Assembly (NCBI RefSeq): GCF_000739555.1
Contig: NZ_BBJN01000055.1
Coordinates: 1-56,799 of the forward strand
Source of the DNA: Halolamina rubra
GTDB taxonomy: Archaea > Halobacteriota > Halobacteria > Halobacteriales > Haloferacaceae
Direction of reading: 5' to 3'
Length of the DNA: 56,799 bases
Shown here in pieces: positions 12,984 to 56,799 of the stretch. The translations under genes and the position numbers were made by a program. The notes under the pieces were generated by a model. The model saw only the letters and a program-made list of their open reading frames with translations, was not told where the DNA came from and did no database searches. The first letter of the stretch is position 1. Each line of letters opens with the position of its first letter.

Positions 12984-13084
12984 ACGTGGGCTTGGGGGAG
13001 AGTACGCAAAAAGGGACAGGACCTGGCGGGCTCTGCCGGGGATCCGCCACAACTCGTTTCCTCCTGGGGGCCGAACCGAACGGT

Positions 13085-13210
13085 ATGCGAGCTTCAACCG
13101 TGGTTCTCGCCCTCGGCGCGGTGCTGTTCGCGATCCCGATCCCCGGGACGTTCGTCACCGGCGCGCTCGTGCTGCTCGCGGGCGGGCTCTCGCGCTGGCT
13201 CGGGGAGTAG
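13085..13210 (+). CDS. Small hydrophobic hairpin membrane protein (41 aa)
   Basis: An ATG at 13085 opens a 41-residue product: MRASTVVLALGAVLFAIPIP, a turn, then GTFVTGALVLLAGGLSRWLGE. Two short hydrophobic stretches around a PIPG turn suggest a membrane hairpin. Small proteins of this shape (helix, P-x-PG turn, helix, RWLG end) are common in haloarchaeal genomes. It lies between the divergent ggt promoter and the UspA gene, whose end is 5 nt away. Function unknown. Confidence 0.65.
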   Translation: MRASTVVLALGAVLFAIPIPGTFVTGALVLLAGGLSRWLGE

Positions 13211-13215
13211 CCGGG

Positions 13216-13650
13216 CTACCGGACGACCGTCACCGGGCAGGGCGAGCGGCGGACGACCTTCTCGGCGACGCTGCCGAGCAGCACGCGCGTCACGCCGGTC
13301 CGGCCGTGGCTGCCGATCACGATGTGGTCGATCGCCTCCTCCTCGGCGTAGTCGACGATGGCCCGCGCCGGGCGGTCGTTCACGCGCACGGTGTCGATCT
13401 CCCGGTCCTGATCGGCGGCGGTCTCGACGGCCTCGTCGAGGATCCAGTCCGCGCGCTCGTTCGCCTGCTCGACCCACTCGCCGGGGTAGCCGCCGCCGTC
13501 CGGGCCGGGCGCGGACGCGTACCCCGCGGCGACGGGGTCGATCGCCGTCAGGGCGACGATCTCCGCGTCGGGGAACTCCGACAGCGCGTGCTCGAGCGCG
13601 GCGTCTGCCTGTGGCGATCCGTCGACGGGGACAAGAACGGTTCTCGACAT
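13216..13650 (-). CDS. Universal stress protein (UspA family)
   Basis: 144 residues, single Usp domain. The strand VLVPVDGS at the start and the ATP-binding motif GSHGRTGVTRVLLGSVAEKVVRRSPCPV near the end (G-2X-G-9X-G-S form) are intact, which predicts an ATP-binding Usp. The ATG at 13650 begins just before the first strand. Cytoplasmic; stress role inferred from the family. It is the only member in the window. Confidence 0.92.
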   Translation of the reverse strand: MSRTVLVPVDGSPQADAALEHALSEFPDAEIVALTAIDPVAAGYASAPGPDGGGYPGEWVEQANERADWILDEAVETAADQDREIDTVRVNDRPARAIVDYAEEEAIDHIVIGSHGRTGVTRVLLGSVAEKVVRRSPCPVTVVR

Positions 13651-13760
13651 GGATCGAACGTCGGCGCCCGGCGTCGAAAAGCTACCGGGCAGTCTCACGG
13701 GCCGGGAACGGCTCGCGGTACAGAAGTTGGGGGCGGGCTGGATGGCGTGTTGCAGTCGAC

Positions 13761-13973
13761 AGAGCCACGGCGTCGAGTTCCGTGCTCGCGGCACGGAGGC
13801 CGCGAGCGGTCACGCGCCGTGTGACAGTTGATAGAGCCACGGCGTCGAGTTCCGTGACCGCGCGACGGAGCGCGCGCTCGGTCACGCGCCGTTTGTGACC
13901 GTTGATAGAGCCACGGCATCGAGTTCCGTGCTCGCGGCACGGAGGCCGCGAGCGGTCACGCGCCGTGGCTCAA
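13761..13973. repeat. Three tandem nested-palindrome units (72-74 nt period)
   Basis: AGAGCCACGGC starts at 13761, 13833 and 13907 (periods 72 and 74). In unit 3, GAGCCACGGC (13908-13917) pairs with GCCGTGGCTC (13963-13972), and inside it CTCGCGGC pairs with GCCGCGAG around ACGGAG. Unit 2 keeps the loop core ACGGAG, but its inner arms become GTGACCG...CGGTCAC, so both halves changed together. The last unit contains the TGA of the M28 peptidase. A second array of the same architecture lies at 40302-40434. Candidate REP-like or 3'-end RNA structure. Confidence 0.8.
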
Positions 13974-15343
13974 TTACTCTCCCCGTACGGCCACCGCCCA
14001 CCCATCTTCAGCTCCTGCACGTACCCCTCGTCGATGGCGTCGCGGGTCTCCTCTCGCCCCCGAGCTTCGACCTCGAACTCGTCGCGTGCGGCGCGGTACA
14101 CCGCCTCCGTCACCAGCGTCGCCACGTCCCGGAGGTCCCGGGAGTCGAGCTTGTCCAGCGTGTCGGCGTGGGTGTGGCCCCAGCCGCGACCGGACTGGTT
14201 CGAGGTCGTGCCGGTCATCGTCGCCGGCACGCCCTCCTGCACGAACGCCCACTGGTCGCCGTGGGGCGAGATCGTGTCGCCCGTCGAGACCGGGGCGTCG
14301 AACTCGTCGGCGACCGACCGGAACAGCTCGCCCAGCTCCTCGAACCCGTTGGTGCCGACCCGGAGGTTCCGGGAGCTACAGGCGCCGTCGAGGTTGATCA
14401 CGCACTTCACGTTCTCGAGGTCCGTGGTCTCGGCGCAGTGGTACGCGCCGCGCAGGCCGATCTCCTCGGAGCCGAACGTCACCAGGCGAACCCGGCTGTC
14501 GAGCTCGTCGGCGACCTGCGAGAGCAGGCGCCCCACTTCGGCGACGAGCACCGAGCCCGCGCCGTTGTCGTTGGCGCCGTCGGCGATGTCGTGGCCGTCG
14601 ACGTGGGCGGTGACGAGCACCTCGTCCGCCTCGCCGCCCTCGTCCGGGCCCTCGGGGCCCACGTAAGCCTCGACGTTCCGCGACGTGGCCGGCTCGTTCC
14701 GGCAGTCCACGTCGACGGTGACCTCGCAGTCGCCCGCCTCTGCGTAGCGTTCCAGGCGAGCGCCGACCTCCTTCGAGACGCCGACCGCCGGGATCGGCCC
14801 CGGGCGGTTGTTGTACCCCACCTCCCCCGTCGGCGGTAGCGCGCCCTCGATGTGGTTGCGGAACACGAACGCGACCGCGCCGTGGTCGGCGGCGTTGACG
14901 TACTTCTCCATCCGGTGGAGCCAGCGGTCGGCGTGCTCGGGCGTGTCGCTGGAGGCCATCGCGATCGCGCCGTCGAGTTCGGCGCTCTTGGCCTCGAACT
15001 CCTCGTAGCTGCCGTCGCCCACGTCGACGATCGGCGCCGTCGCCTCGCCCGCGGGGGTCCCCGGGAGCGCGACGACCTGGTGGCTCCCCGTGTGGGTTCG
15101 CTCGTGGGGCGACTCGACGGTCAGCGACGAGTCGCCGCGCCACCAGCCCGGGATCTCGAACTCCTCGATCCGGGGGTTCCGGAGCCCGGCGTCCGCGAAC
15201 GCCTCGCGGATCACCTCGGCGCCCTCGGCTTCGCCCTGCTGGCCGGCCATGCGGTTGCCGACGTCGACGAGCTCCTCGAGCCGGTTCCACGCGAACAGGC
15301 TCGTCTGTGCGTCGCCGACGACGGCGTCGGGTAGATGGACCAT
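13970..15343 (-). CDS. M28-family zinc metallopeptidase with PA-like insert
   Basis: 457 residues. Two-zinc aminopeptidase/carboxypeptidase fold: AHVDGHDIADGANDNGAG gives the first His and bridging Asp, GSEEIGLRGAYH the catalytic Glu pair, NLDGA an Asp, and WGHTHADTLDKLD the last His. A protease-associated-like region with VGDGSYEEFEAK and DTPEHADRW precedes the catalytic half. No clear signal peptide after the ATG at 15343, so it is probably cytoplasmic. The stop codon lies inside the nested palindrome repeat. A C-terminal tail of about 50 residues follows the last metal ligand. Confidence 0.88.
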   Translation of the reverse strand: MVHLPDAVVGDAQTSLFAWNRLEELVDVGNRMAGQQGEAEGAEVIREAFADAGLRNPRIEEFEIPGWWRGDSSLTVESPHERTHTGSHQVVALPGTPAGEATAPIVDVGDGSYEEFEAKSAELDGAIAMASSDTPEHADRWLHRMEKYVNAADHGAVAFVFRNHIEGALPPTGEVGYNNRPGPIPAVGVSKEVGARLERYAEAGDCEVTVDVDCRNEPATSRNVEAYVGPEGPDEGGEADEVLVTAHVDGHDIADGANDNGAGSVLVAEVGRLLSQVADELDSRVRLVTFGSEEIGLRGAYHCAETTDLENVKCVINLDGACSSRNLRVGTNGFEELGELFRSVADEFDAPVSTGDTISPHGDQWAFVQEGVPATMTGTTSNQSGRGWGHTHADTLDKLDSRDLRDVATLVTEAVYRAARDEFEVEARGREETRDAIDEGYVQELKMGGRWPYGESN

Positions 15344-25832: not shown

Positions 25833-25842
25833 CGCGCCGCGA

Positions 25843-25950
25843 CGCCGGGTGACAGTTCCCGGCGTGATCAGTCGCCCACGCCGGGTGACAGCGTCCCGGC
25901 GCGATCAGTCGCCCACACCGGGTGACCGTTCCCGGCGTGATCAGTCGCCC
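25843..25950. repeat. Three tandem 36-37-nt hairpin units between convergent genes
   Basis: Units start at 25843, 25879 and 25916. Each carries a stem CGCCGGG / CCCGGCG (CACCGGG in unit 3) with an 8-9-nt loop, followed by GATCAGTCGCCC. The third GATCAGTCGCCC contains the TGA of the minus-strand zinc-ribbon gene, so its last codons and stop have been tandemly copied outward with a hairpin. Likely a bidirectional terminator amplified by slippage. Confidence 0.7.
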
Positions 25951-40227: not shown

Positions 40228-40301
40228 ACCCGGCGGTGGGAGTGGCTGACGCTTGTAGGCTGTGGGTCCGGTGTCGCAGTGCAGAGGGGGATGGATTCAC
40301 A

Positions 40302-40434
40302 CAACTACGGCAGACGCTCCGAGGTTCCAGCACGAAGGCTGGAACCGGTCGCGAGCCGTAGTTGACTCCGCACAGCCACGGCAGACGCTCCGATCGAGCG
40401 GCCGACGCCGCTCGCTGTTCGCGAGCCGTGGCTG
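40302..40434. repeat. Two tandem nested-palindrome units (71-nt period)
   Basis: Unit 1: outer stem CAACTACGGC (40302-40311) with GCCGTAGTTG (40355-40364), inner hairpin GGTTCCAGC (40323-40331) with GCTGGAACC (40338-40346). Unit 2: CAGCCACGGC (40373-40382) with GCCGTGGCTG (40425-40434), inner CGAGCGGC (40395-40402) with GCCGCTCG (40407-40414). The single-stranded parts AGACGCTCCGA and CGCGA are shared while both arms vary in compensation. The array ends 3 nt before the stop codon of the VTT gene. Same family as 13761-13973. Confidence 0.85.
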
Positions 40435-40436
40435 GC

Positions 40437-41012
40437 TTAGAAGAACGTCACGACCTCGATCAGCCCCAGCGTCACCAGCAGGCGCCCGACGCTGCCGACG
40501 AACGTCGCCACCGCGAACCGGTAGTAGTCCTCCTCGAGCACCGAGAAGGCGTAGATCGACAGCGTGTCGGGGAACGTCGGGACACAGAGCGCGAGCGCGA
40601 GGCCCCCGTAGCCGTACTTCTTCGCGAGCTGGACCACCTTCTTCTCGGACCACTCGACCACGTCGAACCGCGACCGACGCAGCGCGCGGGTCACGGGGCC
40701 GGACTCCTTGGCCTCCTGGCCGATGTGGAACGCGAACACGGAGCCGGCGGCCTTGCCGACGCCGGAGACGAGGATGATCACCGCGAGCCGCATCGTCTGG
40801 CTCAGCCCCAGATCCAGCGGCGCCGCCAGCACGATCTCGCTCACGCCCGGGAGGGCGAACGCGATCAGGAACGAGTAGATGAAGATCGCCACCAGGCCGA
40901 CCGGGCCGGTGGCGGTCTCGACGAGCTGGGAGAGCGGGCCGCCGGAAGCGGTGTGCTGGAGCAGGACCGTGAGAGGGGCGGCGAGCGGGTCGAAGCCGGG
41001 GACCGTCAGCAC
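40437..41012 (-). CDS. YqaA/VTT-type membrane protein
   Basis: 191 residues with four to five transmembrane helices. The core APLDLGLSQTMRLAVIILVSGVGKAAGSVFAFHIG is a VTT/SNARE-associated (DedA-like) element, in which the first helix hairpin and the glycine-rich SGVGKAAG are typical. The C-terminal FPDTLSIYAFSVLEEDYYRF fits the YqaA subgroup. Family members act in lipid scrambling or membrane homeostasis. Its stop abuts the nested palindrome repeat. Confidence 0.8.
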   Translation of the reverse strand: MLTVPGFDPLAAPLTVLLQHTASGGPLSQLVETATGPVGLVAIFIYSFLIAFALPGVSEIVLAAPLDLGLSQTMRLAVIILVSGVGKAAGSVFAFHIGQEAKESGPVTRALRRSRFDVVEWSEKKVVQLAKKYGYGGLALALCVPTFPDTLSIYAFSVLEEDYYRFAVATFVGSVGRLLVTLGLIEVVTFF

Positions 41013-56733: not shown

Positions 56734-56799
56734 GCGACTGCAACAGCATCGACGGGGACAGCGACCGCAACAGCATCGACGGGGACAGCGACTGCAACA
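56734..56799. repeat. 27-nt tandem repeat running off the window end
   Basis: Units begin at 56734, 56761 and 56788. Units 1 and 2 differ at one base (GACTGCAA versus GACCGCAA). The last unit is cut by the window edge. Read on the minus strand, the unit encodes a 9-residue Val/Ala-rich repeat, and the single difference is silent (GCA/GCG, Ala). Confidence 0.85.

Follow-up and report, generated by a model that had tools for sequence, protein, structure and literature searches.

The window analysed here is a stretch of 56,799 nt from Halolamina rubra (contig NZ_BBJN01000055.1). It carries, on the minus strand, a gene for an M28-family peptidase with an array of three tandem units at its end, and a second array of the same repeat family behind another gene. 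In the following list, unit scores refer to the covariance model R1 (see below) and fold z-scores to the gene strand.

13216–13650, minus strand: UspA-like gene downstream of the array, on the strand of the M28 gene (start and name read from the translation; the longer listed ORF is 13216–13794)
13760–13826, minus strand: unit 3, inner hairpin equal to that of unit 1, outer stem partial (R1 77.4 bits, E 8.9e-15; fold z −3.3 for 13761–13832)
13832–13898, minus strand: unit 2, inner arms jointly changed, outer stem partial (R1 65.4 bits, E 6.5e-12; fold z −1.2 for 13833–13904)
13906–13972, minus strand: unit 1, nearest to the M28 stop, outer stem complete (R1 84.3 bits, E 1.9e-16; fold z −5.9 for 13907–13978)
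13970–15343, minus strand: M28-family peptidase gene (from the ORF listing; Pfam PF04389, E 1.3e-29, plus a PA domain; start codon by sequence reading)
40300–40435, minus strand: second family array in the window, 2 units (R1 75.1 and 59.9 bits)

The units of the M28 array start 72 and 74 nt apart (TRF: periods 74 and 72, score 328), so that the three units claimed in a preliminary description are indeed present. The stop codon of the M28 gene is TGA at 13970–13972 (TCA on the plus strand). In the gene sense this is the first triplet of the outer stem of unit 1, in agreement with the earlier placement of the stop within the last outer stem. The UspA-like gene starts about 110 nt past the array. 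The second array lies 1 nt behind the TAA (40437–40439) of a VTT-domain gene (Pfam PF09335). Elsewhere in the window, an unrelated tandem hairpin array (25842–25950, 3 copies of 36 nt) shows on the minus strand, in each copy, GGCGACTGA followed by a hairpin, as if stop codon and hairpin had been duplicated together, and a 27-nt tandem repeat occupies 56734–56799 at the very end of the contig.

Read in the gene sense, each unit has an outer stem that leads through a neck with tandem G.A pairs into an inner stem capped by a CUCCGU loop. The loop core that had been described as fixed (ACGGAG on the plus strand) occurs in all three M28 units. The outer stem had been assigned to all three as well; its full form (GAGCCACGGC/GCCGTGGCTC) is found in the unit at 13906–13972, and the other two keep only about 6–7 bp by reading. 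The claim that the inner arms change together had been based on arms that are not homologous, as CGGTCAC occurs in all three units. The homologous arms read CTCGCGGC/GCCGCGAG in two units and ACCGCGCG/CGCGCGCT in one. Between the middle unit and the others, four stem positions differ, giving three paired changes and one broken pair. This is the only inner-arm contrast that the array in the window offers. Taken alone, the middle unit does not fold clearly better than chance, with 22 of 200 shuffles folding equally well or better on the gene strand and 97 of 200 on the other strand. It is the comparative data, not the window itself, that lift the fold of the M28 array above chance.

A DNA search with the M28 array against its own genome (G000; 2.955 Mb in 71 contigs, 93% complete) returned 45 matches (E up to 1), counting those in the window. 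Iterated nhmmer over 20 loci and the window yielded 54 units, of which 51 were aligned with MAFFT without reference to structure (alignment A1; one unit at a locus edge and two partial units were left out). The structure was drawn by hand from A1, and the covariance model R1, with 19 pairs, was built from this alignment and trained on the gene strand. Among up to 150 candidates scored, R1 finds 106 units in the own genome (E up to 0.1), grouped into 54 arrays with 1 to 5 units each. In the six other genomes of the genus, it finds 19, 76, 68, 69, 75, and 67 units (E up to 0.01, up to 150 candidates scored in each).

Outside the genus, four of 23 genomes searched with R1 alongside these relatives gave one or two weak matches, with best E values of 0.001 to 0.01. 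Two broader searches used stricter filters, by which weak matches are lost. In the family search (170 genomes, E up to 1e-5), nine genomes match. Seven of these are Halolamina, with 12–30 matches each among the best 30 candidates scored; the 163 genomes outside the genus contribute two, both from one other genus and with one weak match each. In the order search (392 genomes sampled from 95 genera, E up to 1e-6), none of the 386 genomes outside the genus match, and all six matching genomes are Halolamina. A pattern scan of GTDB species returned 12 stretches, 11 of them in Halolamina pelagica and H. salifodinae and one in a MAG named Mycobacterium; the scan is strict, as a close variant of its pattern fits only 18 of the 51 units of A1. 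The match in the Mycobacterium-named MAG (L039) has no array around it by eye and was taken as chance. The repeat family is thus nearly restricted to the genus Halolamina. A weak R1 match in another genus of the family Haloferacaceae (L036:1380–1720) contains two hairpins with ACGGAG loops and is without a clear outer stem; the inner hairpin may therefore occur outside Halolamina.

Nine loci (41,440 bases) gave no match to Rfam (release 15) at gathering scores, and positions 13000–14500 of the window gave, at E up to 1, one sub-threshold match, which lies outside the array. A description of the family was not found among listings, abstract starts, and passages of the open PubMed Central literature. 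The M28 array is thus part of a large and apparently undescribed repeat family.

The preliminary description had proposed selection on the fold and a covariance search as the check; this search returned the 106 copies in the own genome, in which the inner arms change together rather than independently. The inner helix of A1 is paired in 90.1% of cells and has double changes at 9 of 9 pairs; for the outer helix, the values are 84.6% and 7 of 10. RNAalifold applied to A1 returned the inner stem together with three pairs of the neck; the outer stem was not recovered. An independent set is provided by 123 units from two other species (genomes G004 and G005), which R1 had not seen. In these, 91.8% of pair cells pair and 16 of the 19 pairs show double changes. 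As expected for a structured RNA, covariation goes beyond that of shuffled alignments (0.592 against 0.191 ± 0.007, reached in 0 of 500 shuffles, which ignore the relatedness of the units), and slid structures score 0.04–0.09, on an alignment that was fitted to the R1 structure and is biased towards it.

The neck reads 5′-GYGAC-3′ opposite 5′-GGARC-3′, and its G.A and A.G pairs are intact in 116 of the 123 units. The pair next to G.A is C-G in 58, U-G in 33, U-A in 25, and C.A in three of them; on the other side, C-G occurs 95 times and G-C nine times. Inner hairpins were parsed in 227 of 232 units from the three species, the remaining five being without a hairpin (six of 70 matches from G005, one of 69 from G004, and units with lengths outside 58–75 nt were left out). 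The CUCCGU loop, with any closing pair, is found in 90 hairpins, followed by C(GUCG)G in 15, C(UCCG)G in 13, C(GACG)G in eight, and C(UUCG)G in five. Inner stems pair perfectly in 176 of the 227, and 111 different 7-nt inner arms occur among them. The earlier conclusion that selection acts on the fold and not on the sequence thus holds in its first part; as to the second, the units also conserve sequence, namely in the loop, in the neck with its tandem G.A pairs, and in the outer-stem core. The units are a clear case of tandem G.A pairs that are kept while the neighbouring helix gets replaced.

Two further structures were considered and rejected. A pseudoknot between the CUCCGU loop and a downstream ACGGAG is complementary in 77.9% of cells, but only one of its six pairs has a double change. 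A kink-turn would have the tandem G.A pairs, but the flanking pairs are ordinary covarying ones and, by reading, no 3-nt bulge is adjacent. Six units from G004 and G005 have 121–123 nt and are about 55 nt longer than normal (L124:2567–2688, L135:2483–2604, L096:2712–2832, L127:2470–2592, L137:2326–2447, L117:2574–2694); in the three that were read (L124, L135, L096), extra hairpins are inserted in the inner hairpin.

The placement of the arrays was analysed for 120 arrays of the three species (54, 34, and 32 of 36), using ORFs of 70 aa or more. In 78 of the 120 arrays, the first unit begins 0 to 2 nt behind an ORF stop, compared to 120 of 11,407 random positions from the same loci (about 1%), and in 90 arrays an ORF stop lies within −6 to +4 of the first unit, compared to 488 of the random positions. 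The enrichment at gene 3′ ends, the other check that had been called for, is thus strong. It is also oriented: at the other end of the array, an antisense stop is found within 0–2 nt in four and within −6 to +4 in eight of the 120 arrays. A same-strand gene stop lies just behind the 3′ end of 11 of the 120. By eye, several of the 30 arrays without an ORF stop within −6 to +4 have in front of them a hairpin insert or the end of a shorter frame, and a few adjoin the apparent start of an opposite-strand gene. A tRNA beside such exceptional arrays was considered and dismissed, since 20 loci contain a single tRNA, at a distance of over 1 kb from the array. According to crude gene calls, the gene downstream of an array may have either direction. 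Of 20 proteins from array genes that were picked by hand out of 40 and scanned, 18 have a family; the array genes include those for PCNA, cyclophilin, pyrophosphatase, superoxide dismutase, an ATP synthase subunit, HMG-CoA synthase, archease, and M28, M42, and S9 peptidases.

Stop triplets occur not only in front of the first unit. A unit behind another unit is not preceded by a gene, yet in 76 of 114 such cases a stop triplet is found at one of five offsets around the corresponding place (background 6%). When spacings are limited to 95 nt and offsets to 0 to −2, 64 of 108 have one, whereas 2000 column shuffles give 41.4 on average and 53 at most; TGG is never seen at these positions, where the shuffles predict 7.7. 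The distances from stop to stop are not kept to multiples of 3 (27, 19, and 16 of 62 in the three classes modulo 3), and the spacer stops therefore do not serve one reading frame. The spacers thus keep stop codons as stop codons without serving a single frame. Either any unit may become the first one once units are lost, or ribosomes may reach the spacers. A readthrough peptide was rejected based on this frame distribution, with unit starts mostly 67–75 nt apart. Recent tandem duplication together with the stop of the gene was also rejected as the whole story, the stop types matching in 30 of 70 cases (permutation p 0.053).

Whether the fold acts as RNA or as cruciform DNA was addressed by comparing G.U with A.C mismatches in the gene sense. 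The ratios are 39:11 in the neck, 38:16 in the inner stem, and 43:49 (no excess) in the outer stem, in counts that lean to G.U because R1 was trained on the gene strand and that stem from related units, not from independent events. Without its terminal pair, the inner stem gives 22:16, which is not significant; both stored helices without terminal pairs give 62:63, and a simpler count over internal inner-stem positions of the three species gives 27:12. The conserved G.A pairs, the tetraloop-like loops, and the G.U excess in neck and inner stem favour RNA over cruciform DNA without proving it. Mere hairpin-templated DNA repair is disfavoured, since such repair would remove the G.A mismatches, yet these are conserved.

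Arrays are shared between species at specific sites. Among 40 array genes of the own genome with a gene stop, 19 have a reciprocal-best partner that also carries an array, in G004 (15 pairs) and/or G005 (13 pairs); the comparison was made among array genes only, and a few alignments were short. If 2800 genes are assumed, the probability that sets of 40 and 25 share 14 or more by chance is about 5e-21. Of the other 21 genes, 11 were searched as DNA in G004 and G005. At C23_32073, both genomes have arrays; at C42_149348 and C35_12515, G005 has a degenerate unit; and at C34_3976, G004 has its array 130 nt further on. The other seven have no array of the family type where a match was found, one of them having a different hairpin cluster. 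The array length differs between orthologous sites. Orthologous first units (35 pairs) are 51% identical in the 7-nt inner arm (random pairs 42%) and 77% in the outer arm (random pairs 58%); within one array, inner arms are 57% identical. Compensatory changes are seen at single loci, for example in the outer stem behind C42_125253 (G000, G005) and in a tetraloop stem behind C43_35001 (G004, G005).

The M28 gene carries an array in five of the seven Halolamina genomes, each starting with TGAGCC and with the stop in the stem, and none in the other two. In G004 and G005, the protein ends at the TGA of the element, five residues earlier than in the two array-free genomes.

A second hairpin-cluster repeat (L154:95–290, G005:C1:2651854–2652029, G005:C1:2325033–2325209) is 95–97% identical among three sites in G005. 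It occurs at 30 places in five of the seven genus genomes, with none in the own genome, and at one site it lies directly behind the stop codon where the own genome has a five-unit array.

Several known systems resemble these arrays. Integron attC sites are folded, lie behind stop codons, and have free stem letters. All of this applies to the Halolamina units as well, but these are in tandem without genes between them and carry no cassettes. Bacterial REPs have a conserved head tetranucleotide. REP/BIME elements are palindromic, extragenic, and present in many copies behind genes, some within 15 nt of the stop, according to passages of PMC12306157, which describe effects on translation and whose reference list includes titles on effects on mRNA stability. 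The Halolamina arrays are likewise multi-copy, palindromic, extragenic, and at gene 3′ ends (106 units, 54 arrays). BIME units, however, alternate in orientation (according to a passage of PMC2817692), whereas the units of a Halolamina array have one orientation, none on the opposite strand being found within arrays in the R1 match lists of three genomes. Free stem letters, the conserved tandem G.A neck, and the stop triplets in the spacers also set the Halolamina units apart from REP/BIME elements. So may copy number, which does not seem to track the Y1 transposases (RAYT, PF01797): these were found in five of the seven genus genomes and not in G001 and G002 (the latter 79% complete), which nevertheless hold 19 and 76 units.

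Among haloarchaeal repeats, the PATEs and SMRs of Haloquadratum walsbyi are short, have palindromes or inverted ends, and lack a transposase gene of their own (passages of PMC3119063). SMR-A elements insert into palindromes according to the same passages, as a second hairpin element does in some Halolamina units; the extra hairpins in the three long units that were read are reminiscent of this. PATEs differ by near-terminal palindromes related to IS605-type ends, and the passages of PMC3119063 mention neither stop-codon placement nor tandem arrays for PATEs and SMRs. Hairpins upstream of transcript ends are described for Haloferax volcanii, one of them with 59% termination, and the passages of PMC7237163 that report this describe no shared sequence family or tandem layout.

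Our preferred explanation, held tentatively and a little short of even confidence, is that the arrays may be structured 3′-UTR RNA elements of Halolamina which define or protect mRNA 3′ ends. Beginning at the stop codon of its gene, an array would be transcribed together with it. Haloarchaea are thought to depend on an RNase R-like 3′-to-5′ exonuclease. The hairpins would be a stop for such an enzyme, by which the mRNA 3′ end would be both defined and protected; possibly they also act in part as a transcription terminator. Recognition would fall to the conserved neck with its tandem G.A pairs and to the CUCCGU loop; of the inner stem, no more than pairing would be required. Given the size of a ribosome footprint, the outer 5′ arm would be under the ribosome terminating at the stop codon, with the neck just outside, and the outer stem would close only after release. 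Its closing could thus report ribosome release and tie the end of translation to the fate of the message. Position, orientation, fold, near restriction to the genus, and shared sites come from computation; that the arrays are transcribed, act as RNA, and set or guard the mRNA 3′ end is what we infer. The missing G.U excess in the outer stem, the patchy presence of arrays between species, the 30 of 120 arrays that lack an ORF stop at the expected place, and the 11 with a same-strand gene stop just behind their 3′ end weigh against this explanation. A more far-reaching proposal, which seems unlikely, is a stop-codon cassette, an exchangeable stop codon with an RNA fold that would take over gene ends and control translation termination together with the fate of the mRNA 3′ end. 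The data are compatible with it: the spacers retain their stop codons as such and never have TGG there, the M28 stop is in the stem in five of five genomes with the array, and the protein ends early in two.

Hairpins that simply halt RNA polymerase at the array, in place of a T-stretch terminator, are an unlikely explanation. The arrays do lie directly behind genes, with the next gene in either direction (crude gene calls), and a Haloferax volcanii hairpin ended 59% of transcripts in a reporter (passages of PMC7237163). Only 26 of 120 arrays have, in the 120 nt that follow, the run of four or more T expected just behind the hairpin of an archaeal T-stretch terminator; for the first 60 nt, the count is 14 of 117. 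When T-runs behind arrays were compared with controls based on crude gene calls, no usable difference appeared, and the idea that arrays replace T-stretch terminators was dropped on this ground. Moreover, a conserved neck and loop with a free inner stem would exceed what a terminator needs. We regard it as quite unlikely that the arrays act primarily on translation, stalling or timing the terminating ribosome as E. coli REPs do less than 16 nt from the stop, with built-in stops that catch continuing ribosomes. The first base of the unit lies 0–2 nt behind the stop in 78 of 120 arrays, spacer stop triplets exceed the shuffles (64 of 108 against a mean of 41.4, maximum 53; TGG 0 against 7.7), and Liang 2015, as cited in passages of PMC12306157, found that REPs up to 15 nt from the stop stall ribosomes. 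Against this, the stop spacings (27, 19, and 16 of 62 modulo 3) serve no single frame, and core genes, presumed to be well expressed, would be odd targets for down-regulation. The termination and translation readings both retain some weight because Haloferax hairpins end transcripts and E. coli REPs less than 16 nt from the stop affect translation.

A small mobile DNA element, whose fold would be needed for its own movement and which would land at stop codons bringing its own stop, is decidedly unlikely. It would account for the patchy presence between species, the stop triplets of the units, and the M28 proteins of G004 and G005 that end five residues earlier at the TGA of the element, and haloarchaea do have PATEs and SMRs with palindromes (passages of PMC3119063). 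The copies are diverse, however (111 different 7-nt inner arms among 227 units), they have nearly one orientation relative to the gene, locations common to several species are far above chance, and copy number does not seem to track Y1 transposases (none found in G001 and G002, with 19 and 76 units). Finally, the arrays could have no function at all, with quasi-palindrome (hairpin-templated) DNA repair keeping the arms complementary and tandem duplication and gene conversion spreading the copies. Inner arms that turn over almost completely and yet stay complementary, array lengths that vary between orthologous sites, and the tandem repeat of gene end and hairpin at 25842–25950 of the window are in line with this. 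We consider it very improbable and already disfavoured, since 116 of 123 units have intact tandem G.A mismatches that such repair should have removed, and since it would not maintain loop sequence, orientation, or distance to the stop codon.

Little is understood of how haloarchaeal messages are ended and protected. With about 100 natural variants in one genome at a fixed distance from the stop codon, including those behind core genes, the Halolamina arrays are a natural experiment on what an archaeal 3′ UTR needs, and through them a possible link in archaea between the termination of translation and what becomes of the mRNA 3′ end can be tested.
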